64,000 nt of DNA. Origin: Kangiella shandongensis. GTDB lineage: Bacteria; Pseudomonadota; Gammaproteobacteria; Enterobacterales; Kangiellaceae. The notes beneath the pieces are model-generated. The model was not told the DNA's origin, did not search any database, and saw only the letters and a program-made list of their open reading frames with translations. Made by a program: the position numbers and the translations under genes. Below, in pieces: positions 45,526-59,808 of this stretch; the stretch's first letter is position 1; every line of letters starts with the position of its first letter. The stretch covers positions 1-64,000 of the forward strand of contig NZ_JACNML010000002.1 in NCBI RefSeq assembly GCF_020005365.1. Direction: 5' to 3'.

Positions 45526-47997
45526 CTAGAATGAGGCGAACAGGCGAGTTAGCGCTACAGCTGTTGCAGCACGACTCATCGGTTTACCTGGATCGAAGTA
45601 AGCGGTAATGGTTGGTTCTAAATCGAACGGACCTTGCTCCACTTCAAAACGTGCATTGATAATGCCAAGATCCAATGCATGTTGAACATAGTGCTTTAAG
45701 TTTTCAGGAATGTTACCAGCATCGGCAATGATGATTCGTTCATCACCATAGATGGCCGTCAAATAGCCGCTGCTATAGCTTGATTCAACACCTTCCAGCC
45801 CAAGTGACTGTACAAGTGAGTAAGCTGCATCAAGCTTAGTTACCGCAGCGCCAGGGTCGAATGTGATGTTATCGGCTTTCATTACCGGACCCTGCTCCTG
45901 AACTCTATCTTTAAGAGCCGAACCAGTGTCGGTGACCGCGTTAATAGCAGCAGCATCAGCAGCACTCACATCGATGTACTTAGAGTCAGCAGCATCGTTA
46001 GATTGGCGAATACCTGCGCCTAGCGTGAGATAATCAGCAAACTGAGCACGGGTTATCAGAACATCGGGATAAAAACCATCTGCCAACGCATCAACCAACT
46101 GTTCGCTTACCGCGTACTCAATAAATGACTGCGCAATATGACCTTGCGTGTCATCGATACCGCTAAAGCCATCAACCTGTACAAACTTGACGTCGACAGG
46201 AATAGTGTCAGGCAGTGCATAACCATTGGTTGCATCCACCGGATCAACGTCAACGCCAGAGATGCCACCGATACCTTTAACCGTAAGATTCCAGGTACCC
46301 GGCTCTCCAGGAGCGGTTACAGCGACATTCTGACCTAATACTGGCAAAGCAATACTCGAGCCATAACGCTTGCCTGTTGGGCTCGTTAGTACTAGAGCAA
46401 CTGTATTATCAGAGATATTAGCTCGCGCCATAATAAGAGAGATGTCCTGACCAACGGTAAAGTTTTCACCTGGGTTATCACCTGCTGGTGCGAAATCCAC
46501 GTCTAACTGGAATTGATCGGCAACGGAAGTATTCGCGCTGGCATTAAACTCACGGTTAACTTTTGTTGTTTCACCGAAATCTTTTGCTTCATCCAGTGCC
46601 GCCTGTACCGCCGCATAGGCGTTGATGTAACCAGCACCGGCTTCCCATGGCTCAAGACCAGGCATATTAGTCGCAGTATCCTGCAGGATACGCTTTACAT
46701 CTTTCCAGTTCAGCGACGGATTAGCTTCCAGCATTAAAGCAACGATACCTGAGGTATGAGGGGCAGCCATCGAAGTACCACTCATAATAGTGTAGTAAGG
46801 CACCTGATCTGCCGGCAGAACTTCTGAATCGTCTGCTGTGCCTAATAGAGAAGTACTTCCAAGAGAAGCTCTAGCAGAAACAATGTCAACGCCTGGAGCC
46901 GTTATGGTTGGGCGATCGACCCACTCAAACGTTTCACCATCGACTTCAACTGTTCCACCGCCGTTTTTCACGCCTCGAGAACTAAAGTCAGCCAAATTAC
47001 CATCTTTATCGCCAGCAGCAACAGTTACCACCCAAGGTGCCTTTTTAAAGTTACCCGTGATAGTCGCTTCACCACTACCCGAGTTACCCGCTGAAAACAC
47101 AACGATAACACCGTTATCACTCAGCTCTTTAGTCAGAACGTTTGTCGGATGATCTGGATTAAAGTCAGAACCCGTATCGCTGGTGCTACCGAAAGAGTTA
47201 GAAATAACTCTTATATTGTAGTCGTACTGATGCGTTAAGGCGTAATCGAAACCACCCAATGTGTCCAGAATAAAAAGGCCAGCGCCAGAACCATAACCAA
47301 TAATGTCAGCTCCTGGTGCGACTCCCTCCTGTTCCCCGCTCGACATGCTACCGTTCCCGCCAATTGTGCCGGCAACGTGAGTACCGTGACCACCAGCTAA
47401 ATCCGTGTTTGGTACATCTTCCTGATAGGTGATAGGAAGCATGGTATCTACAGAGTTCAGGTTAGTTTGCGCTAAAACATTTTGTACAACGTGGTTAGGG
47501 TATTTTAGATCTGAGTGTGTACCATCAACGCCAGAGTCATTGACGACAACACCAACGCCTCGGCCAGAAACCGGTACACCGTTGATACGAATAGATTGAT
47601 CTGCACGTAAGCGATCGACGCCGGTTAACTGAGTTGCTTCCTGATTGTCATAAGTCAGCTCAGCGTTATGCCATACCGAACGTACATCGTCACGCGAGTA
47701 AATGGTTTCGATTTGCTGTTTGGTAGCAACCGTACCAATCATCGGTACATTCTGTAAGATCACACCCTTGCTGATGCCTAATTGCTCAAGTGCACTAATT
47801 TGTGACTCAGTCGCAGGACCATCACCCTCGAAAGTAATGATAACTTCAAACTGGTCAGTGTTAAGCGCATCCGGCAATGCTTCGGTCAGATGTGGACCCA
47901 AAGACTTTGCAGACAAGCCAAAAGAAGAAAGACCTATACCTGCGGCAAGCAATGCGCCCTGTACAGGTTTAGATTTAAAGAAAGATTGTGTTGTCAT
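45526..47997 (-). CDS. Secreted S8 subtilisin-like protease A with SLH-like C-terminal region
   Basis: A signal peptide (ALLAAGIGLSSFGLSA) and an inhibitor-I9-like prodomain precede the catalytic domain. The triad is Asp154 (VVNDSGVDGTH), His204 (GGHGTHVAGT) and Ser409 (SGTSMAAPH), with the oxyanion Asn in FSAGNSGSG. After residue about 480 comes a beta-rich region and then three SLH-like repeats (residues about 640-820), with ITRAQFADYLTLGAG and VTKLDAAYSLVQSLG, which may hold the enzyme at the cell surface. I chose ATG 47997 (MTTQSFF). It lies directly downstream of the response regulator gene and carries the shared 14-bp element upstream. Confidence 0.9.
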   Translation of the reverse strand: MTTQSFFKSKPVQGALLAAGIGLSSFGLSAKSLGPHLTEALPDALNTDQFEVIITFEGDGPATESQISALEQLGISKGVILQNVPMIGTVATKQQIETIYSRDDVRSVWHNAELTYDNQEATQLTGVDRLRADQSIRINGVPVSGRGVGVVVNDSGVDGTHSDLKYPNHVVQNVLAQTNLNSVDTMLPITYQEDVPNTDLAGGHGTHVAGTIGGNGSMSSGEQEGVAPGADIIGYGSGAGLFILDTLGGFDYALTHQYDYNIRVISNSFGSTSDTGSDFNPDHPTNVLTKELSDNGVIVVFSAGNSGSGEATITGNFKKAPWVVTVAAGDKDGNLADFSSRGVKNGGGTVEVDGETFEWVDRPTITAPGVDIVSARASLGSTSLLGTADDSEVLPADQVPYYTIMSGTSMAAPHTSGIVALMLEANPSLNWKDVKRILQDTATNMPGLEPWEAGAGYINAYAAVQAALDEAKDFGETTKVNREFNASANTSVADQFQLDVDFAPAGDNPGENFTVGQDISLIMARANISDNTVALVLTSPTGKRYGSSIALPVLGQNVAVTAPGEPGTWNLTVKGIGGISGVDVDPVDATNGYALPDTIPVDVKFVQVDGFSGIDDTQGHIAQSFIEYAVSEQLVDALADGFYPDVLITRAQFADYLTLGAGIRQSNDAADSKYIDVSAADAAAINAVTDTGSALKDRVQEQGPVMKADNITFDPGAAVTKLDAAYSLVQSLGLEGVESSYSSGYLTAIYGDERIIIADAGNIPENLKHYVQHALDLGIINARFEVEQGPFDLEPTITAYFDPGKPMSRAATAVALTRLFASF

Positions 47998-48061
47998 GTT
48001 TAACCCACCCATTTGGAAATTCACTTATGAGCTTGACATGTCGCAACACTTTTTATAATTA

Positions 48062-48075
48062 GGGAAATCCCCTAG
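48062..48075 (-). promoter_or_regulatory. Shared 14-bp element upstream of subtilase A
   Basis: The bases are GGGAAATCCCCTAG, identical to the element upstream of the other two subtilases. On the coding strand it reads CTAGGGGATTTCCC, a dyad of GGG and CCC around AAAT/ATTT, and starts 65 bases before the ATG. Two more CTAG tetramers follow it upstream (48079-48082, 48094-48097), possibly further half-sites of the same binding protein. Confidence 0.6.
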
Positions 48076-48107
48076 TAACTAGAGAAACAACACCTAGAGG
48101 GTATCAG

Positions 48108-48743
48108 CTATATCAATAATTTATGTTGAGCAGCGTATTTTACCAGCTCTGCCGAGTTGGCAGCACCTAATTTATCCAATACCTTGCCGCGATGATTTTC
48201 AGCTGTTTTCACGCTGATATCCAGTAAACGTGCGATTTCTTTGGTGGTTTTTCCATCAATAACCAGGTGGAACACTTCTCGTTCTCTTTTTGTTAGGTTC
48301 TTATAGGGATCGCTCCACTCTTCCGGTTGGTTATACTGATTAGCCAGTACCTGCGCCGCATACTGACTAAAATAACTTTTCCCGGAAGCTAAAGCTTTCA
48401 CGGCCTGAATCAACTCCTCACTGGCACTATCTTTTAATAAATAACCTGAAGCTCCAGCTCTAACCATATGAATTACATATTCTTCTTCTTCGTGCATGGT
48501 AAGAACCAGCACTTTGCATTGAGGCAACTTTCCTGTAATACGTTTGACCACTTCCATACCATTCAGCTCGGGCATGCTGATATCCACAACCGCGATTTGT
48601 GGCGAAAGCTCTTCTGCCTTCTCAACAGCCTCAAGCCCGTTGGCCGCTTCACCAACCACCACACAGTCCTCGTCCTTTTCCAGAATACTGACCAGTCCCT
48701 GCCGTAATATGGTGTGGTCATCAGCAATTAATACTCGAATCAT
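48108..48743 (-). CDS. NarL/LuxR-type response regulator
   Basis: The 211 residues comprise a receiver domain (phospho-acceptor Asp in IAVVDISMPELNG, near residue 53; acidic pair IADDH; conserved Lys in YLLKDSA) and a LuxR helix-turn-helix (LTKREREVFHLVIDGKTTKE, then ISVKTAENHRGKVLDKLGA). It is the natural partner of the histidine kinase whose gene it overlaps by one base. Its likely targets are the three subtilase promoters carrying the shared dyad, the first of which is the next gene. Confidence 0.88.
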   Translation of the reverse strand: MIRVLIADDHTILRQGLVSILEKDEDCVVVGEAANGLEAVEKAEELSPQIAVVDISMPELNGMEVVKRITGKLPQCKVLVLTMHEEEEYVIHMVRAGASGYLLKDSASEELIQAVKALASGKSYFSQYAAQVLANQYNQPEEWSDPYKNLTKREREVFHLVIDGKTTKEIARLLDISVKTAENHRGKVLDKLGAANSAELVKYAAQHKLLI

Positions 48744-49471
48744 TAATGTTCCCCCATTAATAGCATTTTAACTTCAGCGCCCTTCCCCTTCGCTGAGTTG
48801 ATCATCAGCTGACCACCAAATGCCGCCACCCGATCCTGCATTGCCGAAAGACCAAAACCATCCGGTCCTAAAGCTTTGTTAGTATCCATCCCCACGCCAT
48901 CATCGGTGACTTTAACTAATAAGATAGACGGTTGTGAGGCGACATCAATTTTAATGTGGTTTGCTCCGGCATGTTTTATGGCATTTGTCAGCGCCTCCTG
49001 GACAACCCTGAATACCAGAGTTTGAGTTTCTTCATCCAGCTCCTTATCAATGTGAGTTTCCAACTCAATGGTCAAATCTGTTTGCTCCTGCATGATGCGT
49101 CGTAACCATTTCAGGGCTGGCACTAAACCAAGATCATCTAATATTCGTGGTCGCATCAACCGGGAAATCTTCCTGGTATCGTTTAGTGCCTGACGCGCTA
49201 ATTCTAAACTGTCCTTAAGCGACTGCTGTAGATTTTCGTCCTTTTCCTCTTTCAATGTCTGCTCGACCTGATTGATTAACGCTGTCAACAGCTGCCCAAC
49301 CCCATCATGCAACTCTCGTGCAATATGTTTTCTTTCATCTTCCTGAACTTTCCATACGCGTTTTGCCAAACTCCGCATTTGCGTATTGCCAGCAGCGAGG
49401 CTCTCGGCAAGCTGACTTTGTTTCATACTCAGAGCATTCAACATGTCCGTTATTTCATCTTTACCTGTCAT
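48743..49471 (-). CDS. Sensor-less NarX/DegS-type histidine kinase
   Basis: The 242 residues have a short coiled-coil start, a HisKA_3 dimer/phospho-acceptor domain (RELHDGVGQLLTALI, His near residue 55) and a HATPase domain (QEALTNAIKHA, DDGVGMD, GFGLSAM). There is no membrane helix and no recognisable sensor domain, so input must come from another protein. Its gene overlaps the upstream Ser/Thr kinase gene by 4 bases (ATGA), which makes that kinase with TPRs the obvious candidate for the signal input. Confidence 0.87.
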   Translation of the reverse strand: MTGKDEITDMLNALSMKQSQLAESLAAGNTQMRSLAKRVWKVQEDERKHIARELHDGVGQLLTALINQVEQTLKEEKDENLQQSLKDSLELARQALNDTRKISRLMRPRILDDLGLVPALKWLRRIMQEQTDLTIELETHIDKELDEETQTLVFRVVQEALTNAIKHAGANHIKIDVASQPSILLVKVTDDGVGMDTNKALGPDGFGLSAMQDRVAAFGGQLMINSAKGKGAEVKMLLMGEH

Positions 49472-52400
49472 AAAAAGTTCTCCATAAAATCATCAGTAAA
49501 CGAATAACGTCCTTGCAGTGAAATAAGGTATTGCCGCTGCTCTTCTGGCAGTTGCTTTAATAATTCTTCTAATTTTGATGTGGCTATTTCTAGATACTGC
49601 TCAGCCAGTTCATGCTTATTCAGTAAGCGGTAATAATTCGCTACTAAACGCTGAGTAAAAAAGTCACTCCAGTGTACACCAATCATGCGCTGGCTTTCGG
49701 CTAACTGCTCGATGGTCACCTCGAGTTGTTCCAGGTTCTGTTGCTCAATGTAATAGGTCGCCTGTAACTGTAATAACCTTAACCGAGCAAACTGATGCAG
49801 TTCCAGATCGTAGGATTTTATAGCCCCAATCAATTGCTCTATTTGCTTATTATTGTTTGAATCAAGCAAAACCAACCTTTCCATTTCAAATAGCAGCTGT
49901 TTAATCTTTGCTCTGGAAGTAAGCCCTTTCGCTTCGAGATCTGTTAATGTCTGATACTCCTCGGCACTGTCTTGATTTTGATACAATCGCAAACGGTTAT
50001 TTAAGACATGATAAATAACTTGCTGCGATTGGTTATGCTCCTGCTTTAGTAAAGGTTGAACCGCGTTCAAGCTGTTAGCTGCAGCGGAATAATTACCCGA
50101 ATTAATTTGCCACTCCACTAGCCACAATCCAAATTCCAGCTGACCTCTAACGTCCTTACGCTCTTCCAGCAGTTGTTTAATCTCTTGGAGTTCATTCAGT
50201 GGCTCAATAAAGTTACCCTTTAGTAAAGCAATCTTAGCCAGGTACGCTTCTGCGACAATTTTCTCTTCGAACAGGTTTAGAGACTCCGACTCCTCTTTCG
50301 CCAGGGAAAAGGTCTGGAATGCTGCTTGCCAGTCACCTTTTCTCAGGTTTAACTGAGCGACATTTTCATTCACTCGTATAACGCCGACTGGATCCTGCAC
50401 TTTTTCATAATAGTTTTTGGCCTGCTCCCAATAAATTGTGGCATGCTCTTCATCCGACAATAAAAAGTAAATATAGGCGACATTATTTAAGCTTTCCGCC
50501 TTTAGCCAGTCATCATCAAGCTTCATACGAATACTGAGCGAGGCTCTGAAGTGCTCCAGGGCTTGGCCATAGGCACCTTGCTCTTCTGCAATAATGCCTA
50601 ACTCATTGTATAAATCCGCCTGCTTTGCAGCATCATTACGCGGCTTATTCACTTCCAACGCCCGGTACAGACGTTGCTCCGCTTCTTCAAACTCTCCTTT
50701 AATAGCATAGATTGATGCCAGATTCGATAAACTGGTAACAATACCTCGAGCATCGCCAATAGATTCTCTCGCGGCCAAGCCCTGTTGATAATAGTCGAGC
50801 GACAGATCAAGCTCTCCCAGCCGATGGTAGGCAACACCAAAAGCATTAAGCACATCGCCTCTTAACTGTTCATTCTTCAGCTTTTTAGCCGTAACCAAGG
50901 CCTTAACCAAATAATCATCAACTGCTTTTTCAGTTTCCCCCCGCCAGATAGCGACTTTGGATAATTCATACCAGGCGGACGGATGATTCTGATCTTCAGC
51001 GACGATACGGTTAAGCTCTGCTTCGGCTTTCTCTAATGCTTCTAACTCAATATACAGCTGCGCTAGTTCAAACCTTATATCATCGCGCCTCGGCAGACGG
51101 TCAAGCACTGTGCTATAAATTTCAGCAGCAGCACTTAAATCTCCTGCAATAAGCTGAAGCTCAGCATTAGAAAGTTGATGAAGTAACTGCTCTGGATTGG
51201 TTAAGCTTTTCACTTTATTAAATGCACCTTCTGCATCAGCCAGTGAGCCACTTTCAGCCGCTACTTTTCCCTTTAAAAACCAGCCCTGTGCAAAGTCTGG
51301 AAACTCTTCAAGAACGCTCTGTAACTGCTCCATTGCACGACTGAACTTTTGCTCATGTAACAAAAGCTCTATTTGGGTCCAGCGCTGTAATGAAAGCTCT
51401 GACGGAATCGAGTGCTGCTCTACAATCGTTGATAACTCAAAATATTGGTTAAGTTGTTCTGCAATCTGCAACAGCTCTTCCGACAGCTCCGCTTCATTCG
51501 CCTCAAAAGCCACCAGCGAATGTCGAGACAGGTTATTTCCAACAACTTCGATAATCGTTGCTTGCAAACGGTACTTTTCTGGACCAACTAAGGTAACAAC
51601 AGTATCCAGCATAGCAGGGGTTTGCAGTAATTCACTCAGGGTTAAAAGCTTCTGCTCGTTAAGTGACGATGAATAGCCTAACAGGTCCATAGTTTGCTGC
51701 GTCCTGTCTGTACCGACAACCCTTAATTGAGCCGATCTGGCAAGCTTTTGTGATAACACGGTCGGTAGTCCCTGGCTTAGCCAGAGTTGATCCGGCATTG
51801 CCTCAACTCGAAATGGAAGAACGGCCACGGCCTGATTGCCCTTCTGCTGGCTGGCAAGGCTCCGGTCATCATTCGTAACGTTTGGATTAAAGTACAAATA
51901 AGTTCCACCAGTCAAAACAAGAAGCAGGCCTAAAACAGCCAAAACAGGATATAGCTTGCTTGATGGCTTGCGATTCACATCAACTGTCTGTCGTAACAGC
52001 TCAGATAATGCCGCAAGATTGTTTGGTCTTCTGCCTGGCTCGGGAGCCAGGCAGGCATCGGTAACAGCTTTAAACAATCGGAATTTTTTAGGTAACTTGT
52101 GAAAATCTCCACGCTTTTTTTCTGCTAATAGATCGTCCAGTTTCAGCGCCTTAAAAGGCGTTTTACCCGTTAACAGCTCAAAAAGAATGACCCCAAAAGA
52201 GTAGATATCCGTGGTTTTATTGGTCTTACCAAACTCTAAATATTCAGGGCTGGCGTAAACCGGCGTACCATTTATGCTATCGACGGTTTCACTACCCAGA
52301 GCCGAGGCGACGCCAAAATCTGCAACGTAGAGGTGATCTTTTGCATCAACCAGTATATTTTCGGGTTTTAAATCACAGTGGCTAACCCCTTTCTGCTCCG

Positions 52401-52845
52401 TGATTGAAAGCGCAGACAGGATCTGCCGAGCATAATAAAGCACTTTGTCCTGACTAAGATCTTCCTGCTCAACGAGATCGGCCAGGTTTCTTCCTTCAAT
52501 CCAATCCATGGTGATAAAGTGAATATTGTTATCATGATAATATTCATGAACACGGACAATATTGGGATGTGACAACTGCCTGAGGGTTAAAATTTCGTTC
52601 TTGAAACTTTGCAGGCTATCGTCATTGATGAGGTGTGGGTGTAATACTTTTATGGCGACGAAAGTATCCAGCTGTAAATCTCTGGCCTTATAAACGCATC
52701 CGTAACGTCCGCAACCCTGCTTTGACTCTATTTCGAATCGACCAATTAATAAGGTGCCGTCGCTTAAAGTTTGAAATTGCTTTAAAACCTGTGTCTTCTT
52801 TAGAGAATTAGACTTAGTGTTGTCATCTAAGCCATCTTGACCCAT
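49468..52845 (-). CDS. Membrane Ser/Thr protein kinase with TolB-like and TPR domains
   Basis: The 1125 residues start with a complete Hanks-type kinase (residues about 35-290): glycine loop GCGRYGCVY, Lys in VAIKVLHPH, catalytic loop HCDLKPENIL, DFGVA and SPEYL. One membrane helix follows (YPVLAVLGLLLVLTGGTYLYF, about 305-325). Next is a TolB-N/FlgO-like segment (VAVLPFRVEAMPDQLWLSQG), then roughly a dozen TPR units to about residue 1090, predicted outside the cytoplasm. TPR arrays bind peptides or partner proteins. Coupled to the sensor-less histidine kinase gene, it looks like a receptor. TTGGGAG precedes the ATG at a longish distance. Confidence 0.87.
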   Translation of the reverse strand: MGQDGLDDNTKSNSLKKTQVLKQFQTLSDGTLLIGRFEIESKQGCGRYGCVYKARDLQLDTFVAIKVLHPHLINDDSLQSFKNEILTLRQLSHPNIVRVHEYYHDNNIHFITMDWIEGRNLADLVEQEDLSQDKVLYYARQILSALSITEQKGVSHCDLKPENILVDAKDHLYVADFGVASALGSETVDSINGTPVYASPEYLEFGKTNKTTDIYSFGVILFELLTGKTPFKALKLDDLLAEKKRGDFHKLPKKFRLFKAVTDACLAPEPGRRPNNLAALSELLRQTVDVNRKPSSKLYPVLAVLGLLLVLTGGTYLYFNPNVTNDDRSLASQQKGNQAVAVLPFRVEAMPDQLWLSQGLPTVLSQKLARSAQLRVVGTDRTQQTMDLLGYSSSLNEQKLLTLSELLQTPAMLDTVVTLVGPEKYRLQATIIEVVGNNLSRHSLVAFEANEAELSEELLQIAEQLNQYFELSTIVEQHSIPSELSLQRWTQIELLLHEQKFSRAMEQLQSVLEEFPDFAQGWFLKGKVAAESGSLADAEGAFNKVKSLTNPEQLLHQLSNAELQLIAGDLSAAAEIYSTVLDRLPRRDDIRFELAQLYIELEALEKAEAELNRIVAEDQNHPSAWYELSKVAIWRGETEKAVDDYLVKALVTAKKLKNEQLRGDVLNAFGVAYHRLGELDLSLDYYQQGLAARESIGDARGIVTSLSNLASIYAIKGEFEEAEQRLYRALEVNKPRNDAAKQADLYNELGIIAEEQGAYGQALEHFRASLSIRMKLDDDWLKAESLNNVAYIYFLLSDEEHATIYWEQAKNYYEKVQDPVGVIRVNENVAQLNLRKGDWQAAFQTFSLAKEESESLNLFEEKIVAEAYLAKIALLKGNFIEPLNELQEIKQLLEERKDVRGQLEFGLWLVEWQINSGNYSAAANSLNAVQPLLKQEHNQSQQVIYHVLNNRLRLYQNQDSAEEYQTLTDLEAKGLTSRAKIKQLLFEMERLVLLDSNNNKQIEQLIGAIKSYDLELHQFARLRLLQLQATYYIEQQNLEQLEVTIEQLAESQRMIGVHWSDFFTQRLVANYYRLLNKHELAEQYLEIATSKLEELLKQLPEEQRQYLISLQGRYSFTDDFMENFL

Positions 52846-52909
52846 GTATCTGCACTCCCAAGGCTTGCCGCCAATAATAGGCTCAATCAGTTAACGCCTC
52901 CATTATTTT

Positions 52910-53812
52910 TTAATGGATAGCGATGGGCACCTGCATTTTTAATAACTGTTCTTCTGCAAGTACTTTATCGGGCATATTCTCTAATATAGCAGATATTTTA
53001 TTTTGTAAAACAATAGCTTCTGAATTAATTTTGATTTGCTTAGCAATCAGATTCAAAATTTCAAGGTCCAGCTCGGTTAAAACCTTGTTAGCTTCATGGC
53101 TGTCAACATAGACCACACCAATGAGTTTGTTATCACTGATTAGTGGAATACAGGCTAAAGCAGCAATCTTTTTGCGCTGAATGCTTTCACGAGCGGCTAG
53201 ATGTTTATCCAGACTGGTATCCATAGCAATGATAGGCGAGCTATGCTGAAGTGCCTTTTGCATGGCACCAACGCTGCCTTCAAATGAACGGTGGTTAAAG
53301 TCCTGCTGAGTCATGCCTTTAACTGCACAGACAGACAGCTCCTGTGGATTATGGCCTAGCATCACCAGACCGCGCTGTGTTCCCGTTAAATTTAATAACG
53401 AAAATAACTGCTCGTCGAGAGCATGAATCAACGACTGCTCGGCAACTTTACTATAAGACTTTCTGGACTGCTCAATACGCCACTGGTTATGGGCATTAAT
53501 AGCTCGAATTTGGTTCTCGGACTTGAGTTCAAATATGCAATCGACTTCGCCTACGGTGATAATGTCATTGGCCGATAATATGCTGTCAGACACTTCTCGA
53601 CCATTAACCTTAAGACCATTAACGCTCAACTTATCATGCAACTGCCAAGCACCCTCCCGGGCGTTTAAAGTGGCATGTTCACGAGATACACTTGGGTGAT
53701 TCAATATGACATCACACCCTTCGCTTCGTCCTACACGATATTGCGAGTTCTCAAATAAGAAGCTTTCCTTAGCCGGCTCATCAGTATAACACGCTGTTAT
53801 TCTGGCTGGCAT
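52910..53812 (-). CDS. FHA-GAF domain protein
   Basis: Residues about 10-95 are an FHA domain (YRVGRSEGCDVILNHPSVSREHATL, given in two parts: YRVGRSEGCDVILNHPS and VSREHATLN, then VNGLKVNGREV), which binds phosphothreonine. Residues about 140-275 are a GAF domain (IPLISDNKLIGVVYVD), a common small-molecule or protein sensor. There is no effector domain. FHA proteins next to a Ser/Thr kinase are commonly its substrate or adaptor. AGAGG lies about 7 bases before the ATG. It precedes the kinase gene by 64 bases. Confidence 0.85.
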   Translation of the reverse strand: MPARITACYTDEPAKESFLFENSQYRVGRSEGCDVILNHPSVSREHATLNAREGAWQLHDKLSVNGLKVNGREVSDSILSANDIITVGEVDCIFELKSENQIRAINAHNQWRIEQSRKSYSKVAEQSLIHALDEQLFSLLNLTGTQRGLVMLGHNPQELSVCAVKGMTQQDFNHRSFEGSVGAMQKALQHSSPIIAMDTSLDKHLAARESIQRKKIAALACIPLISDNKLIGVVYVDSHEANKVLTELDLEILNLIAKQIKINSEAIVLQNKISAILENMPDKVLAEEQLLKMQVPIAIH

Positions 53813-53826
53813 ATCATTACCTCTTA

Positions 53827-54663
53827 CTAATTAATCAAACGCAAACTGAAACGTAATGTATTGGCAAGTGCAATCAGTTCCCCTGCGACATTATCAATAT
53901 CTCGGCTTGAACGCCATACATCAGGAATGTTATCGCCTCTGTGCTGATCCACGTAACGGCTGAACTCATCTACTTTATTACTGGCTAAAATGTAGCTCTG
54001 CTGCTGTACCAGCTGATCAATTTCATTAAGCTTCGTATTTAACTCATTGTAAGTGACCGGGTCGATCTGAGTCGAAAAACCGGACAATGTATTACTTAAC
54101 CGTGTGAATTTTGTATTGATAACCATCAATGGCGAGCGTAGATCGGCGACGATTAAGAATTGAGAAAACTTACCCGTGGTACCCCGAGCTCGATAACTAC
54201 CAGAGCCCATTGTCGCGGTAATGTCTTTAAACTGACCACCTAAAGGAGCTTTGAAGAACCTTAAAGGAGTGCCTGCTGTATATTCCAGGTTGTGAGTATG
54301 GATATCAACAGTTGCGAGGCCAGAGAAAGCAAAGCCTTTGTTGGATGGTGGCTCTACTGTAATCATCATCGGAAATGCTGATAACAGATTGATATTAAGG
54401 CTATCAGGTAAACGGTTTAACAGTGACAAATCGGTGATATCGACTAACTCAGCCGTAATACCAAGGTTATCAGCTGTTAAGCCAACAGTATTTTCAAAAG
54501 TCAACGTAAAATCAGCTTCAACGTTCCCTGTGAGGTTGATCACCGCTTCAACTTTATTACCATGCACAGTAATATCAATAGCTTGAGAGTGACTCTTAAA
54601 GCTATAACTTAATCCAAGAATCAAAAGAACTACTGTGAAAGTAAGCTTTTTCAAAGCTGACAT
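53827..54663 (-). CDS. Secreted protein of unknown function, first gene of the kinase operon
   Basis: The 278 residues begin with a signal peptide (FTVVLLILGLSYSFKSHSQA). The next 160 residues are beta-rich, and the last 90 are helical (ELNTKLNEIDQLVQQQSY). I have a weak recollection of a DUF6689-type family but cannot confirm it. It lies 14 bases upstream of the FHA gene, so it is probably co-expressed and could be an external ligand or surface partner for the TPR region of the kinase. Confidence 0.65.
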   Translation of the reverse strand: MSALKKLTFTVVLLILGLSYSFKSHSQAIDITVHGNKVEAVINLTGNVEADFTLTFENTVGLTADNLGITAELVDITDLSLLNRLPDSLNINLLSAFPMMITVEPPSNKGFAFSGLATVDIHTHNLEYTAGTPLRFFKAPLGGQFKDITATMGSGSYRARGTTGKFSQFLIVADLRSPLMVINTKFTRLSNTLSGFSTQIDPVTYNELNTKLNEIDQLVQQQSYILASNKVDEFSRYVDQHRGDNIPDVWRSSRDIDNVAGELIALANTLRFSLRLIN

Positions 54664-54762
54664 ATATAAAACCTCGCAGTGTGAGAACCCAATACAACTT
54701 ATGCTAACGCTATTTCAAAATACTTATATTTATCCATTAAAGCAAGAATGCATTGCAAAATT

Positions 54763-54797
54763 GTGTGAAAAGAAGGCCCTTAGCCAACTTTTCACAC
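54763..54797 (-). terminator. Terminator of subtilase B
   Basis: GTGTGAAAAG and CTTTTCACAC form a perfect 10-bp stem, with an inner GGC/GCC stem in the loop. On the minus strand it is followed by AATTTTG, and on the plus strand by CCTTTTT. It lies 12 bases after the subtilase B stop codon. Confidence 0.75.
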
Positions 54798-54809
54798 CCT
54801 TTTTACTAG

Positions 54810-57275
54810 TTACTGATAATAAGCATCGTACATTCTACCAATCAACACCGCATACGCTGCGCGTGTTATAGCGTCGGCAGGCTCAAAGTAAGCTGTTAAC
54901 GTAGGCTCAAGATCAAATGGCCCTTGCTCTATCTCATAACGTACGCCAAGTATGGATAGCTCCAGAGCTATTTGCACGTAACCTTTAAACTCCTCAGGAA
55001 TGGAATCCTGATCGACAACCGGTACTGTCTGACCGTTATAGTCGACTGTAACGTCTCCTGAGAATGCCTTTGCCTGCTCTTCCAGTCCAAGAGACTGCAC
55101 TAGAGCGTAAGCTATATCAAGACGAGTCACTTTGCCATTAGGATCAAACTTATCACCGTCGCTTAGCATAACAGGCTGCTGCTGTTGCACTCTGTCCTTT
55201 AAAGCACTGCCTGGAGCACCAGCAGACTCAGCGAATGCCGCCGCTTCAAATCCAACGTCGCTGAAGCTAACTACAGGCTCGTTCAATAAATCACGGTGTT
55301 GACGAATCGCTGCACCCATGACGAGATATTGTGCCAGCTCTTTACGTCTTAATTCTCTATCAGGACGGAAGAACTTATCATTGAAACTATCAACCAGACG
55401 TTCGCTTGTTGCGTACTGGATAGCCTCTTCTGCTGGGTGGCCGGCAATATCGTCCAACCCTTCATAGCCGCCAGACTTAAAGATGCTGATTTCACCGCTG
55501 ACTGACTCCGGAACACCGGGGCCATTTGTAGTACCAGTCGGATCAGCCTCAACACCAGATAAAGACGTTAAACCATAAGCAGACAACTTCCAGGTACCTA
55601 CTTTAGCAGGTGCTGAAACACGCATATCAGTCGTTAATACTGGCAGCGTTAGGTTGCCAAAATATTCGGTACCATCAGGTGCTTCTAATTTCAATTTAAT
55701 TGTATTGGCTAGCGATTCAGCCGAAGCTGTAATCCATACATCATTCTCTGAGACCTCAAACTCGTAAACATCTGGCTCGCCCGCTGGAGCATACAGAACT
55801 TCGAATGACTCAGGACTGTCATCAGCAATCACGATGGCATTACCATTAAAAGTATTCAGGTTATTAACCGTCGCTTTGTGCTCAGGGTTATAACCCAGTG
55901 CCGCAGCTACCGCAGCGTAGGCATTGACATGACCAGCTCCCACTTCCCACTTTTCATAACCAGGTATATTAGTTGCCGTTTCTTGCAACAGTCGCTTAGT
56001 TTCCAGCGGGGTAAGATTAGGATTCGCTTCCAGCATCATTGCGATAACACCAGCCACGTGCGGCGTTGCCATCGATGTACCTGAAATCATGGTGTAATAC
56101 GGTACATATTCCGTTTCAATCGCCTCTAAATCTGCTTCTCCGCCGTTAGAAACAACGTTGGTGGCCGCTCGAGTGGAGATAATATCGACACCAGGAGCAA
56201 CGATGGATACTTCATTACTATAAGTCCATTCGGTGCCATCTGGCATTATGAAATCACCACTTTCCCCCCGTTTACCACGCGAAGAAAAATCAATGAGTGT
56301 ACCCTGCTTGGTACCGGCACCAACTGACAATCCCCAAGGGATTTGTGCATATGGATTATGCGTATCCTCGCCAGGACCAGAATTACCCGCAGCAAATACA
56401 GAAATCATACCCAGTTTATAGGCTTTGTAAGACGCTACCGAAATAGGACCGTTCGGCTCATATTTACCACTCGAGCCCCATGAGTTACTCATCACACGAA
56501 TTGGAGAGTTAAATTCGAACATATGCGTTAGTGCGTAATCGTAACCACCTAATGCATCTAGAATAGACAGACCAGCTCCTGAGCCATAACCAACAAGCTC
56601 AGCTCCCGGTGCAGCCCCTTTATATTTACCGTCGGAATTAGTACCCCAGCCTGCAACCGTACCGGCGCAGTGAGTACCATGACCAACGTTTAAATCGGTA
56701 TTCAGCTGACCTTCAACCCAAACACCACTAACGCCTGCCAGCGACAAGGCTTGAGCATGAGTAATGGCCTGGACGTTTTCAACCACTTTAGAGCCATACT
56801 CCAGATCCGCATGAGTCGCATCAATACCAGAGTCATTGACCATTACAGTCACACCTTTACCGGTAAATGTCATACCGTTACGCAGTCTAAAGTCATCAGT
56901 CTGAACTTTCTCAGCGCCAGTCAGTTCTCTTGATTCGGCGTTATAATACTCAAGTTCACGGTTCGCAAAAATTGAGCGAACACCGTCCATCTGACTAAGC
57001 TGCTCAATTTGAGCCGGAGTAGCCACGACCCCAACGATCGGCAGTGATTTAAACTGAACACCGTCAGTAATACCAAGGTTCAATAAGTTTTCAAGCTGCT
57101 CAGTTTTCACTGCATCTAACTGATCATAAGTGACCACAACCATAGTGTTGTCAGTTAAACTCATTGTATCTAGTTGCTGATCGAGTTCAGAGCCTATAAC
57201 AGCCTCCGCCGCAGCATTTAAACTAAAACCAGCAAGTGCCGCTGAGAGGGCCAGCTTTTTTAGCTTTATATTCAT
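54810..57275 (-). CDS. Secreted S8 subtilisin-like protease B with SLH-like C-terminal region
   Basis: This is a close paralogue of subtilase A in layout and length (821 residues). A signal peptide (LALSAALAGFSLNAAAEA) and prodomain precede the triad Asp148 (VNDSGIDATH), His199 (GHGTHCAGT) and Ser401 (SGTSMATPH), with AAGNSGPGED for the oxyanion Asn. C-terminal SLH-like repeats are again present (ELAQYLVMGAAIRQH; VTRLDIAYALVQSLG). ATG 57275 is 7 bases from GGAG; an adjacent ATG at 57278 is equally possible. Its promoter region contains the shared 14-bp element. Confidence 0.9.
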   Translation of the reverse strand: MNIKLKKLALSAALAGFSLNAAAEAVIGSELDQQLDTMSLTDNTMVVVTYDQLDAVKTEQLENLLNLGITDGVQFKSLPIVGVVATPAQIEQLSQMDGVRSIFANRELEYYNAESRELTGAEKVQTDDFRLRNGMTFTGKGVTVMVNDSGIDATHADLEYGSKVVENVQAITHAQALSLAGVSGVWVEGQLNTDLNVGHGTHCAGTVAGWGTNSDGKYKGAAPGAELVGYGSGAGLSILDALGGYDYALTHMFEFNSPIRVMSNSWGSSGKYEPNGPISVASYKAYKLGMISVFAAGNSGPGEDTHNPYAQIPWGLSVGAGTKQGTLIDFSSRGKRGESGDFIMPDGTEWTYSNEVSIVAPGVDIISTRAATNVVSNGGEADLEAIETEYVPYYTMISGTSMATPHVAGVIAMMLEANPNLTPLETKRLLQETATNIPGYEKWEVGAGHVNAYAAVAAALGYNPEHKATVNNLNTFNGNAIVIADDSPESFEVLYAPAGEPDVYEFEVSENDVWITASAESLANTIKLKLEAPDGTEYFGNLTLPVLTTDMRVSAPAKVGTWKLSAYGLTSLSGVEADPTGTTNGPGVPESVSGEISIFKSGGYEGLDDIAGHPAEEAIQYATSERLVDSFNDKFFRPDRELRRKELAQYLVMGAAIRQHRDLLNEPVVSFSDVGFEAAAFAESAGAPGSALKDRVQQQQPVMLSDGDKFDPNGKVTRLDIAYALVQSLGLEEQAKAFSGDVTVDYNGQTVPVVDQDSIPEEFKGYVQIALELSILGVRYEIEQGPFDLEPTLTAYFEPADAITRAAYAVLIGRMYDAYYQ

Positions 57276-57370
57276 CATCTGTCTCCAAAGTTCAATAATT
57301 TTATATACCGCCTTCATTCCAAGTCATTTTTGACTTAAAGGCTACCCGGGCAAACACTCAAAAAAGCTAA

Positions 57371-57384
57371 GGGAAATCCCCTAG
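57371..57384 (-). promoter_or_regulatory. Shared 14-bp element upstream of subtilase B
   Basis: GGGAAATCCCCTAG is identical to the elements upstream of subtilases A and C. It is 96 bases before the ATG. Here it also forms the centre of a longer hairpin (arms AAAAAGCTA at 57361-57369 and TAGCTTTTT at 57382-57390), with T residues on the minus strand. So the copy may serve as part of a terminator for subtilase C as well as an operator. Confidence 0.55.
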
Positions 57385-57409
57385 CTTTTTATTGGTTTTG
57401 AATAAAAGT

Positions 57410-57425
57410 GGGCCCTTGCGGGCCC
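57410..57425 (-). terminator. Intrinsic terminator of subtilase C
   Basis: GGGCCC, a 4-base loop and GGGCCC form a short but strong stem. On the minus strand ACTTTTATT follows. It is 20 bases after the subtilase C stop codon. Confidence 0.7.
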
Positions 57426-57444
57426 TGTGTAGACGTGCTATTTG

Positions 57445-59505
57445 CTATTCAACCAAGCTGGATACAGTCGCATCGATTTGGAAGTTAGTCACAACACTTG
57501 CGTATCCATTCACACGCAACACATAATCGCCAGCTTGTTCTGGGGCATAAGATAGAACTTCTGGATTACTCAGGCTTGCGCTGCTGGCAACTTGCTCTCC
57601 CGCAGCGTTTAGCAGTTCGAAGTCAAGGTCGGCTACGCCTTCCCAGCTTAAGTTTGCTTCGATAAGTACAGCATCATCAGTAACTGAAATTGGGAAATCC
57701 TGAACCTCGAGGTTTTCTGCCGATGGTCCCATGGTACCTTCGAACATAAAGCTTTCTGTGGCAATACTTAGGCCATTATCAATCAACTGGCCATCAACTT
57801 TGACCCCGTCCAGGTTAATTTCACCTTCAAGATGCTTCAGCTCAACAGTATGAATGGTGTTACCTGCCAGACCCTTCACTGAAAAAGCTCGTGCTTCTTC
57901 ATCAGGCGAGTAGAAATCAACAACACCGTAGTTTTTGCCATCAACAAATAGTTCGGCCCGACCACCGCGCTTACTGGCAACATAGAGCAGTTGTAAACTT
58001 TCGCCCATAATATCGAACATTGCTTTCGAGCCATTTCTACGAGTTTTCAAGAAGCTACCGTCTGTGCTCAAATCAGAGTCTTTTAACTGCCATTTAGAGA
58101 CATAGTCAATCTCTTCGGTAGACTCACCAAACTGGTTCCAATTACCTTGACTTGACCAGTGAGTTTGACCATCCATAAAGTCAGAGCGGTTACCCTGAGT
58201 ATTACGCGCCAACTCAACGGCTGCTTTAACATTAATATAGCCATCGCCCACTTCGTGGAATTTATAGCCAGGCATATCATCTGCTGATTCTCGGATAACA
58301 GACTCAATTTGATCTGGTGATAGATCAGGGTTCACCTCAAGCAATAAAGCCGCCACGCCAGCAACAAAAGGCGTCGCCATCGAAGTACCGCTCATACCGG
58401 CATAATAAATGTAGTAATCAGGATAATCTTCATTCACAACCGGGCTTAAAGCTGGTAGCGCCGTATTGGCAGCTCGCGTTGAAACGATACTGACACCAGG
58501 AGCAACGATATCCACGTGCTTCCACTCGTCACCCTCAACACCACGGCTAGAAAAATCAGCCAACTCTTTATCCGGATCACCAGCACCCACATCAATCACC
58601 CAAGGCGCCAGTGCATAAGGGTTAATCGTATCGTCTGAAGGGCCATCGTTACCGGCAGCGAAAGTAACTACCAAACCTTTTTGGTAAGCATCGTAAGACG
58701 CTTCATTAATTGGATTGTTTGGATCAAAAGCACCGCCCCCAGAAGCTCCCCAACTGTTAGTGATAATGTCAATGTCTAGACGTTCGCGATTAGCGATAGC
58801 ATAATCAAAACCACCAATAGCAAACAGAATGGAAATCGCTTCGCCAGCACCTAGACCAACCAGGCTTGCGTTTGGTGCAATACCATCATGATAGTACGGA
58901 CGACGAGCATCGTTTGCTGACATAGCACCCGTACCGGCAACAGTCCCCCCTACGTGAGTACCGTGACCCGAACTTGTATCAGTATTAATGACCCCTTCAA
59001 GGTAATAATTACTACCAGTTACCAAGTCCAAATCACCAAGAATTTTAACGTTCTCAACGGTCTTAGAGCCAAACTCTAAGTCTGGATGAGAACCATCGAC
59101 TCCAGAATCCAATACAGCTACGGTAACGCCCTGCCCTGTAACGCCTTCGACATCGTGCACATAGTGACCACCAGTAATCTCACCAGATGTGTAGTTGAAG
59201 TATTGCAGCGGCTTATCGTAGTAAATACTCTTAACACGATCATCCTGAGCTAAATTCAAAATTTGTAACTTATTGAGCGTAGTACCAGCCATTGGCAACT
59301 CTTGCATCGCGATATAAGGACTCGCGACCTGCAACATGACCGAATCCAAGTCGTCTCTATTATGAGTCGTCACGATAACTTTCTTGCTATCAAGCAACGT
59401 CGGCAACATCGACTCAAGCTCTGGACCGATAATCGCATCAGCCTGTGCTCCGCCAGCTAGAGCGGTAAGAACACAAGCGGAAAGTAGTTTGTATTGAGTT
59501 TTCAT
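57445..59505 (-). CDS. Secreted S8 subtilisin-like protease C with PPC-like tail
   Basis: The 686 residues start with a signal peptide (SACVLTALAGGAQA) and a prodomain. The triad is Asp133 (AVLDSGVDGSH), His181 (SGHGTHVGGT) and Ser375 (SGTSMATPF), with oxyanion Asn in FAAGNDGPSDD. Unlike A and B it has no SLH-like repeats; it ends with a jelly-roll-like stretch and a PPC-like domain (residues about 600-680), YAPEQAGDYVLRVNGYASV. That suggests release into the medium instead of surface attachment. The gene is separated from subtilase B by terminator hairpins. The shared 14-bp element lies 67 bases upstream. Confidence 0.9.
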   Translation of the reverse strand: MKTQYKLLSACVLTALAGGAQADAIIGPELESMLPTLLDSKKVIVTTHNRDDLDSVMLQVASPYIAMQELPMAGTTLNKLQILNLAQDDRVKSIYYDKPLQYFNYTSGEITGGHYVHDVEGVTGQGVTVAVLDSGVDGSHPDLEFGSKTVENVKILGDLDLVTGSNYYLEGVINTDTSSGHGTHVGGTVAGTGAMSANDARRPYYHDGIAPNASLVGLGAGEAISILFAIGGFDYAIANRERLDIDIITNSWGASGGGAFDPNNPINEASYDAYQKGLVVTFAAGNDGPSDDTINPYALAPWVIDVGAGDPDKELADFSSRGVEGDEWKHVDIVAPGVSIVSTRAANTALPALSPVVNEDYPDYYIYYAGMSGTSMATPFVAGVAALLLEVNPDLSPDQIESVIRESADDMPGYKFHEVGDGYINVKAAVELARNTQGNRSDFMDGQTHWSSQGNWNQFGESTEEIDYVSKWQLKDSDLSTDGSFLKTRRNGSKAMFDIMGESLQLLYVASKRGGRAELFVDGKNYGVVDFYSPDEEARAFSVKGLAGNTIHTVELKHLEGEINLDGVKVDGQLIDNGLSIATESFMFEGTMGPSAENLEVQDFPISVTDDAVLIEANLSWEGVADLDFELLNAAGEQVASSASLSNPEVLSYAPEQAGDYVLRVNGYASVVTNFQIDATVSSLVE

Positions 59506-59571
59506 AGTCTGACCCTGTCGTTATTTATTTGTCAGGTTCACTATGAAAAGAAATGAGCAGAATTGGAACGG

Positions 59572-59585
59572 GGGAAATCCCCTAG
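59572..59585 (-). promoter_or_regulatory. Shared 14-bp element upstream of subtilase C
   Basis: GGGAAATCCCCTAG again, with one more G so that the dyad GGGG-AAAT-CCCC is perfect. It begins 67 bases before the ATG. A further CTAG at 59605-59608 lies 23 bases away, similar in distance to that seen upstream of subtilase A. Confidence 0.6.
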
Positions 59586-59808
59586 AAAGATAGATAGGTA
59601 TTACCTAGCCGCAAGAAACATATAAAGGAAGCGCCTTACTGAAACGAGCTTTAGCAGTAAAACCGTTTGTTACAACAATTTCGTGGTTCGAGCCTGACTG
59701 TAGTACATAATATCAAGGCACACGAATTGAGAGTTAAATTATACTATAAGCTTCTCAGACCTTGATAATCCAGATTATCAGTCCGGTTGGGAGAGATGGT
59801 ATCTACGT
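59586..59808. other. Spacer between subtilase C and tatD
   Basis: No gene is visible. TGATAATC and GATTATCA (59763-59780) form an 18-base palindrome with a 2-base centre near the tatD stop. No T run follows on either strand, so it is not a convincing terminator and its role is unknown. Confidence 0.3.

Follow-up and report, generated by a model that had tools for sequence, protein, structure and literature searches.

Three genes for secreted subtilases flank a five-gene operon in Kangiella shandongensis, which raises the question of whether the operon commands the proteases beside it, and by what route a signal would reach them. The eight genes lie in a window of 64 kb (the whole stretch of DNA that was analysed, to which the positions below refer) from a genome of 2.8 Mb. 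All are on the minus strand, in the order SubA, SubB, DUF6689 protein, FHA-GAF protein, Ser/Thr kinase with a transmembrane segment and TPRs, sensor-less histidine kinase, NarL-type response regulator and SubC, with tatD on one side of the block and an acyl-CoA dehydrogenase gene on the other. What is new here is a palindromic element, TAGGGG-N-TTTCCC, which precedes each of the three subtilases by 60–80 nucleotides (nt) and, judged from its sequence and distribution, is likely the operator of the response regulator of the five-gene cassette. The features are as follows.

59595–59608, minus strand: second dyad CTAGGTAATACCTA, recognised by eye in upstream alignments, 23 nt upstream of the putative operator of SubA
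59572–59585, minus strand: putative operator CTAGGGGATTTCCC before SubA, exact match
57445–59505, minus strand: SubA, secreted subtilase (S8) of 686 amino acids (PF00082, E 1.1e-47; DSGVD, GHGTH and GTSMA motifs)
57371–57384, minus strand: putative operator CTAGGGGATTTCCC before SubB, exact match
54810–57317, minus strand: SubB, secreted subtilase of 835 amino acids with a C-terminal SLH repeat (PF00082, PF00395)
53827–54663, minus strand: DUF6689 protein with an N-terminal signal-like segment, gene one and constant member of the cassette (PF20396, E 1.7e-105)
52910–53812, minus strand: FHA-GAF protein, candidate phosphothreonine reader (PF00498, PF01590; Arg29, Ser43 and Asn65 conserved)
52792–52794, minus strand: codon of Thr18 in the N-terminal tail of the kinase, candidate FHA-docking phosphosite (Thr in 46/47 loci)
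49468–52845, minus strand: Hanks Ser/Thr kinase of 1125 residues with one transmembrane helix and a large TPR region (PF00069, TPR models)
48743–49471, minus strand: sensor-less histidine kinase (HisKA_3) of 242 residues with an HDGVGQ motif and no hydrophobic segment (PF07730, PF02518)
48108–48743, minus strand: NarL-type response regulator (REC-GerE), the probable operator-binding protein (PF00072, PF00196)
48085–48097, minus strand: weaker second CTAGGT half-site, recognised by eye, 22 nt upstream of the putative operator of SubC
48062–48075, minus strand: putative operator CTAGGGGATTTCCC before SubC, exact match
45526–48024, minus strand: SubC, secreted subtilase with an SLH repeat (PF00082, PF00395)

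A palindromic element upstream of the linked subtilases

A common CTAGGGG-W-TTTCCC was spotted by eye in aligned upstream regions of Kangiella. Searching the window with CTAGGGGNTTTCCC gave three matches even when two mismatches were allowed, all of them exact and located before SubA, SubB and SubC (the expectation in the window is 0.57, and at least three matches occurred in 1 of 100 shuffles). In the whole genome, TAGGGGDTTTCCC has three copies at the same places. The exact palindrome is thus found in this genome only before these three subtilases, which are among about 12 subtilase genes (counted from 15 matches).

The same pattern was searched in other genomes. Across 12 cassette-bearing Kangiella genomes, TAGGGGDTTTCCC gave 25 matches, 24 of which lie at cluster subtilases by coordinates, while the eight cassette-less Kangiella genomes gave 0 matches. 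The pattern read backwards, as a control, produced six scattered matches. The sole exact operator-like match off the cluster in these 20 genomes (L272, G014:C1:1344578) has, by eye, no adjoining subtilase. Nine genomes of Pseudoalteromonas, Colwellia and the Marinicella type had 11 of 12 exact matches at cluster subtilases; the remaining nine genomes of that search had four matches, none at the cassette. When at most one mismatch was allowed, the element was present upstream of cluster subtilases in 29/34 cases in Kangiella, 4/4 in Pseudoalteromonas, 8/10 in Colwellia and 3/3 in the Marinicella type, but in 3/8 in the idiomarinas together with L092, 0/1 in Pleionea (where the site has two mismatches) and 0/2 in L183. 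The background at this threshold was 339 of 20000 random stretches of the same loci, true sites included.

Sixteen GC-rich loci with adjacent subtilases, which played no part in defining the pattern, were also analyzed. With at most two mismatches, the element was found in 20 of 24 subtilase upstream regions, compared with 1.2% of random stretches, and in 2 of 16 upstream regions of DUF6689. For two of the four misses (L193 and L194, S8dn1), the upstream region was probably taken from an incorrect start.

The core of the element is palindromic, with 69% self-complementary pairs at the best centre over 47 sites, which had been chosen by pattern. A −10-like word (from a list drawn up by eye) followed the core at 26 nt in 22 of 57 sites, at 24 nt in 15 and at 27 nt in four; no such word was found in 13 sites, and SubC of the window gave a spacing of 21. 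This position would be that of an activator bound just upstream of or over the −35 region. A second CTAGGT dyad or half-site is often present about 22 base pairs (bp) upstream at SubA and SubC. The core has a 6-4-6 geometry like that of ComA sites. From these patterns, we consider it highly probable that the cassette regulator acts on the element.

Components of the locus

An earlier note on this DNA, made from the letters alone, had read the locus as a phospho-signalling circuit, and its description of the parts held. Pfam domains, coordinates and the Asp/His/Ser catalytic motifs, found in all three window subtilases, agree with three S8 genes flanking a five-gene operon. From kinase to regulator, neighbouring genes overlap, by 4 nt between the two kinase genes and by 1 nt between histidine kinase and regulator. 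The histidine kinase is sensor-less and has no hydrophobic segment. The receptor-like layout of the Ser/Thr kinase agrees with one hydrophobic 19-mer at residue 301, followed by TPRs, and the "secreted protein" of that note proved to be a member of Pfam family DUF6689 with an N-terminal signal-like segment. The outer end of the stretch that it had singled out, 59585, coincides with the first base of the putative SubA operator. The true start of SubC is probably an internal ATG at 47997. SubB and SubC carry an SLH repeat, a feature typical of Gram-positive S-layer proteins, although the host is a gammaproteobacterium. Around the cluster, simple scans for promoters and terminators gave nothing above shuffled sequence.

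The five-gene cassette is co-inherited

A contig scan with the DUF6689 alignment yielded 23 loci, all with the order DUF6689, FHA protein, Ser/Thr kinase, histidine kinase, regulator (in L127 the contig stops within the kinase). Their hosts are Kangiella, Pseudoalteromonas, Colwellia, Cognaticolwellia, Pleionea, Marinicella, Idiomarina-type genera, Tahibacter, a Lysobacteraceae bin and one gammaproteobacterial bin. A subtilase lies beside the cassette in 20 of the 23, the other three being two Tahibacter loci and the Lysobacteraceae bin. The kinase profile matched 16/394 genomes of the order of the window and 37/299 genomes of the order of G405, home of the Tahibacter, Lysobacteraceae and Marinicella records; the loci of all 16 and of 31 of the 37 were inspected (G783, G827, G938, G959, G1009 and G1028 were left out). 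After removal of duplicate records (L091, L112–L117, L123, L124 and L134), 63 distinct loci were obtained, of which 47 serve as non-redundant representatives (mutual kinase identity <70%). By domain position, the five genes have one order and one strand in 63/63 loci, even where kinase identity falls to 26–27%; contig ends cut off the histidine kinase and regulator in L127 and DUF6689 and the FHA gene in L213. DUF6689 was found in 3/369 genomes of the class, always within the cassette. In a Colwellia locus (L126, 10810–11744), the FHA gene is split into two overlapping frames, possibly by a frameshift or sequencing error. Two genomes of one genus, G1037 (L186, L187) and G863 (L188, L189), each have two diverged cassettes.

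Within Kangiella, 12 of the 20 genomes searched have full-length kinase, histidine kinase and cluster subtilases. The other eight, one of which is only 55% complete, have no cassette orthologue and gave only distant single-domain matches. As far as contigs reach, gene order from tatD to the dehydrogenase gene is identical in the 12 genomes, except that G005 has no SubB and G003 is cut inside SubC by a contig end. In five of the genomes (G003, G006, G012, G014 and G019), tatD and SubA are separated by about 3 kb of other DNA. Five of the eight cassette-less genomes were examined at this position, and the gap between tatD and the dehydrogenase gene is about 75–100 nt in two and 1.1–3.7 kb in three. 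In a TatD tree of 19 genomes, seven cassette-less Kangiella form one clade.

Because 12 of 20 genomes of the genus and several other genera share the arrangement, it is far beyond chance, and chance clustering of the genes was rejected. An accident confined to Kangiella was rejected on the presence of the cassette in other families. The five-gene cassette is a co-inherited unit, and kinase, candidate reader, putative relay, likely operator and probable output are retained together across several families of Gammaproteobacteria.

Subtilases are the main partner of the cassette

A subtilase is an immediate neighbour (600 nt or less from the cassette) in 45/63 loci and 31/47 representatives. Six arrangements occur among the 31: subtilases on both sides on the same strand (13), upstream and divergent (8), downstream on the same strand only (5), upstream on the same strand with one downstream on the opposite strand (2), upstream on the same strand only (2), and divergent plus downstream (1). 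Chance alone would place a subtilase beside the cassette in about 0.5% of loci, given 401 S8 matches in 35 genomes that total 145.5 Mb and an assumed density of one gene per kb (some genes match twice). Subtilases are present somewhere in all 35 genomes searched. Because 16 of the 47 representatives have no adjacent subtilase, proteases are the main but not the sole partner of the cassette.

Two points of the earlier note can be judged here. Dedication of the circuit to the three subtilases is well supported by the placement of the palindrome in this genome; as a general rule, it is partly contradicted. The comparison of gene order in relatives, which that note had proposed as a check, showed a conserved cassette preferentially beside subtilases, together with the 16 cassettes that stand without an adjacent one, in part the finding that it had named as speaking against a circuit.

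Several other neighbours were observed. L187 and L203 have PA- or I9-type subtilases, scoring only weakly with the subtilase profile (50–51 bits; 59–70 with a second profile) and recognised by Pfam in both cases; their distance from the cassette exceeds 1 kb, and they were scored as not adjacent. FG-GAP-like, secreted-looking proteins adjoin cassettes without an adjacent subtilase in L187, L189, L201, L202, L204 and L207, the family being confirmed by Pfam in the three that were scanned (L202, L204 and L207), and they are a possible alternative output. In L205, L207 and L211, a protein divergent from DUF6689 has a signal sequence and a TREFSSSWYDP-like start, with operator-like sites between; no Pfam family was found for it in L205 and L211, the two scanned.

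A position matrix was trained on 52 sites, those of the tested loci included, and the three best matches per locus were compared with ten strand shuffles. Matches above all ten shuffles were found upstream of DUF6689 or of a neighbouring secreted gene in L188, L205, L207, L210 and L211, and in L203 before DUF6689 as well as before the subtilase that lies farther off. The top matches of L205, L210 and L201 lie elsewhere. Matches were barely above shuffles in L132, L133, L181, L182, L184, L187 and L204, and none was above shuffles in L186, L189 and L202.

Conservation of the signalling proteins

The catalytic residues of the Ser/Thr kinase (Lys66, Glu84, Asp158, Asn163 and the DFG motif) are each conserved in 63/63 loci. 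The AlphaFold model of the window kinase (mean predicted local distance difference test, pLDDT, 82.8) has a helix at 299–318 and TPR helices at 486–1114, a topology that would place the TPR region outside the cytoplasm. Mean pairwise identity among 45 representatives is 0.42 for the kinase domain, 0.35–0.40 for the central TPRs, 0.19 for the membrane-proximal part, 0.21 for the C-terminus and 0.66 for the helix-turn-helix (HTH) of the regulator, which ranks highest among the cassette regions compared. At 0.35–0.40 against 0.42, the constraint on the central TPRs comes close to that on the kinase domain, as would suit a ligand that is itself conserved. A fold search with the whole kinase returned only protein kinases among the 50 matches listed and was uninformative on a TPR ligand.

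The N-terminal tail of the kinase is variable in length and sequence. A threonine is nevertheless present at −19 to −17 from the kinase-domain anchor in 46/47 representatives (in 5000 shuffles, the mean was 14.3 and the maximum 26). In the window it is Thr18, within KTQVL; residues 9–23 have pLDDT <50. We consider this threonine a candidate site for docking of the FHA domain. FHA domains bind phosphothreonine with a preference at +3, which the contexts TQVL and TQII fit and TGLY less plainly. The sole exception is Pleionea L180, whose kinase open frame starts close to the kinase domain and whose FHA protein departs at four conserved positions. The residues that we take to form the phosphothreonine pocket of the FHA domain are conserved as well: Arg29 in 61/62 (one gap, L122), Ser43 in 62/62 and Asn65 in 58/62 (exceptions L092, L129, L130 and L181). 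The ability of the FHA protein to read phosphothreonine, as claimed in the earlier note, is thus supported at the level of sequence, by these pocket residues and by the fitting tail threonine.

In the histidine kinase, His55, Asn163, Asp190, Gly192 and Gly194 are each conserved in 62/62 and the glutamine of DxxxQ in 60/62; L186 and L188 have DxxxH in its place. Within its 42 N-terminal residues, no position has Ser/Thr in more than 41% of representatives. The sole well conserved Ser/Thr nearby is Thr63 (91%), which follows the catalytic His in a motif common to the histidine kinase family. Regulator residues Asp8, Asp9, Asp54 and Lys104 are conserved in 62/62, position 82 is Thr in 58 and Ser in four, and the window protein has a LuxR-type HTH (PF00196). 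The closest solved chains are DesK and VraS for the histidine kinase and VraR, DevR, NarL and DesR for the regulator. The AlphaFold model of DUF6689 (10 sequences) has a mean pLDDT of 74.1, and a fold search with it gave no PDB match at E ≤ 0.001.

A proposed circuit and its alternatives

Taken together, these patterns suggest how the locus may work. A signal, perhaps a secreted ligand such as DUF6689 or a product of proteolysis, would meet the TPR superhelix outside the cytoplasm and change kinase activity. The kinase would autophosphorylate the conserved threonine of its N-terminal tail, and the FHA domain of the FHA-GAF protein would dock on the phosphorylated tail. Acting as a detached sensor module, FHA-GAF may then switch the cytosolic, sensor-less histidine kinase, which would phosphorylate the NarL-type regulator through residues that are conserved in both. 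A regulator dimer is predicted to bind TAGGGG-N-TTTCCC, alone or with the second dyad about 22 bp upstream, and to activate the subtilase promoters; in some lineages, the output may be another secreted protein or the cassette itself. Confidence differs between the parts. The cassette very probably decides the timing of extracellular protein digestion, and the predicted control of the proteases by the regulator is well supported by sequence. For the circuit as a whole, in which the five-gene cassette controls extracellular proteolysis by these steps, the balance tilts moderately in favour. A signalling line from kinase through FHA to histidine kinase is, on the conserved residues, an even call. 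The outside location of the TPRs would follow from the topology, and from there they may sense a secreted ligand. The complete Ser/Thr-to-His-to-Asp line within one cassette, with a TPR kinase marking its own tail, FHA-GAF reading the mark, the histidine kinase relaying it and the regulator firing a private palindrome, is put forward tentatively, at a little short of even.

Several observations weigh against this circuit, and four other explanations have to be considered with them. Upstream of DUF6689, the operator was found in 0/21 regions of 260 nt within two mismatches (Kangiella, Pseudoalteromonas, Colwellia and Marinicella-type). In 35 genomes of the Tahibacter/Lysobacteraceae order (28 with and seven without the cassette), exact matches to a looser pattern numbered ten in nine genomes, five at cassette subtilases and five away; one cassette-less genome was matched, and a reversed control gave four. 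Drift in the idiomarinas has turned the element into TAGGGGATCTCCC or TTCGGGGATYTCCC, and any exact matches are found at other positions. Another protein could bind the operator. The element might accordingly belong to a regulator encoded elsewhere, whose regulon the cassette merely adjoins; the five matches away from the cassette would suit this, and binding by the cassette regulator is a prediction. Against it, element and cassette are gained or lost together in Kangiella, the element accompanies the cassette into GC-rich genomes, the regulator HTH has diverged in the idiomarinas as the element has, and a palindromic core suits a NarL-type dimer. We regard such an outside regulator as rather improbable. 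The Kangiella pattern of presence and absence amounts to one or two gains or losses only, and a gap of about 75–100 nt between tatD and the dehydrogenase gene in two of five cassette-less genomes means that the eight genes behave as one block. A mobile block could therefore have brought cassette and proteases together, their linkage being hitch-hiking, but the six arrangements of adjacent subtilases and the element in most linked-subtilase upstream regions make this very unlikely. The absence of an adjacent subtilase from the 16 representatives noted above, among which L213 has no flank to judge, also counts against a purely protease-directed circuit.

The other two explanations concern the upper part of the circuit. 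A standard two-component system might control the subtilases, with the Ser/Thr kinase and FHA protein co-inherited and serving secretion or the envelope. No fusion or contact evidence joins the kinase/FHA half to the histidine kinase/regulator half, which weighs against the proposed line, and FHA proteins and Hanks kinases serve other systems (another Ser/Thr kinase of this genome adjoins a type VI secretion system (T6SS)-type FHA protein, beside another subtilase group). This is unlikely, however, given the single order and strand of the five genes in all 63 loci, even at the lowest kinase identities, a histidine kinase without a sensor of its own, and the overlapping gene ends from kinase through regulator in the window. 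Alternatively, the Ser/Thr kinase may act directly on the histidine kinase or regulator, in the style of YbdM-DegS or Stk1-VraR, leaving FHA as a separate output or buffer. Phosphorylation by such kinases of a DegS serine (PMC3033389) and of the NarL-type VraR (PMC4601284) is on record in the excerpted text of these reports. Here the conserved threonine is in the kinase's own tail, whereas the first 42 residues of the histidine kinase hold no conserved Ser/Thr, and we think direct action unlikely, though worth keeping in view beside the proposed route through FHA-GAF.

Comparison with known systems

DegU is a NarL-family regulator, and YbdM is not encoded with degSU. The cassette pair resembles DegS-DegU in joining a histidine kinase without transmembrane segment to a NarL-type regulator. 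In Bacillus subtilis, the Hanks kinase YbdM phosphorylates cytosolic DegS, boosts phosphotransfer to DegU and affects exoprotease production, and two studies together assign a wide regulon of 135 units to the system, as given in the excerpted text of PMC3033389. The cassette likewise sets a Hanks kinase beside a cytosolic histidine kinase, a NarL-type regulator and exoproteases, in this case known from sequence. The phosphosite in the YbdM system is a DegS serine, and that excerpt mentions no FHA partner (PMC3033389); unlike it, the present system combines a receptor kinase with TPRs and an FHA-GAF protein in a single cassette, and its putative operator is confined to linked subtilases. The best NCBIfam models, all under their cut-offs, were MctS, UhpB and LiaS for the histidine kinase (20 matches) and MctR, MadR and NarL for the regulator (best 25 of 102), and no DegS or DegU model was among these matches. 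We therefore regard YbdM-DegS-DegU as the closest known system and a probable functional analogue of the cassette, and do not claim family membership.

The histidine kinases of VraS, DesK and NarL systems carry membrane sensors. The cassette histidine kinase has none, unlike these systems (VraS-VraR, DesK-DesR and NarL), which are the closest solved relatives of the cassette pair. Mycobacterial PknA/PknB/PknH-EmbR is similar in that phosphothreonine made by a Hanks kinase is read by an FHA protein with an effect on transcription (PMC4601284, excerpted text). EmbR itself binds DNA, whereas the cassette FHA protein has a GAF domain instead, with the histidine kinase and regulator in between. The threonine phosphorylation pathway of the T6SS uses the PpkA kinase and Fha, and there, as in the cassette, kinase and FHA protein are encoded together. 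Membership in this pathway was rejected, as the cassette FHA protein has no PF20232 (the T6SS FHA C-terminal domain). In the same genome, a second subtilase group (L273, G000:C22:238000-257900) lies near a Ser/Thr kinase of 715 amino acids and near an FHA protein whose C-terminal domain is that of the T6SS type; the whole-genome pattern search found no exact operator copy there.

Cross-talk between Hanks kinases and two-component systems is known from individual cases, and the kinases are described as pleiotropic in PMC4601284 (excerpted text), which also reviews other contacts of kinases with regulators. In the open-licence literature (subscription papers and preprints being outside the scope), nothing was found on the cassette, the operator, DUF6689, or Kangiella together with subtilases. 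The statement of the earlier note that no circuit with exactly this wiring has been described is in line with this search and is tempered by YbdM-DegS-DegU (PMC3033389, excerpted text).

Implications

The cassette locks a Hanks kinase and a two-component system together with a mappable operator and few targets, and command of a histidine kinase by a Hanks kinase is therefore testable through a short promoter read-out. DUF6689, a family of unknown function, gains a context. The cassette, whose hosts include many marine and soil bacteria, offers a handle on when such bacteria secrete proteases.

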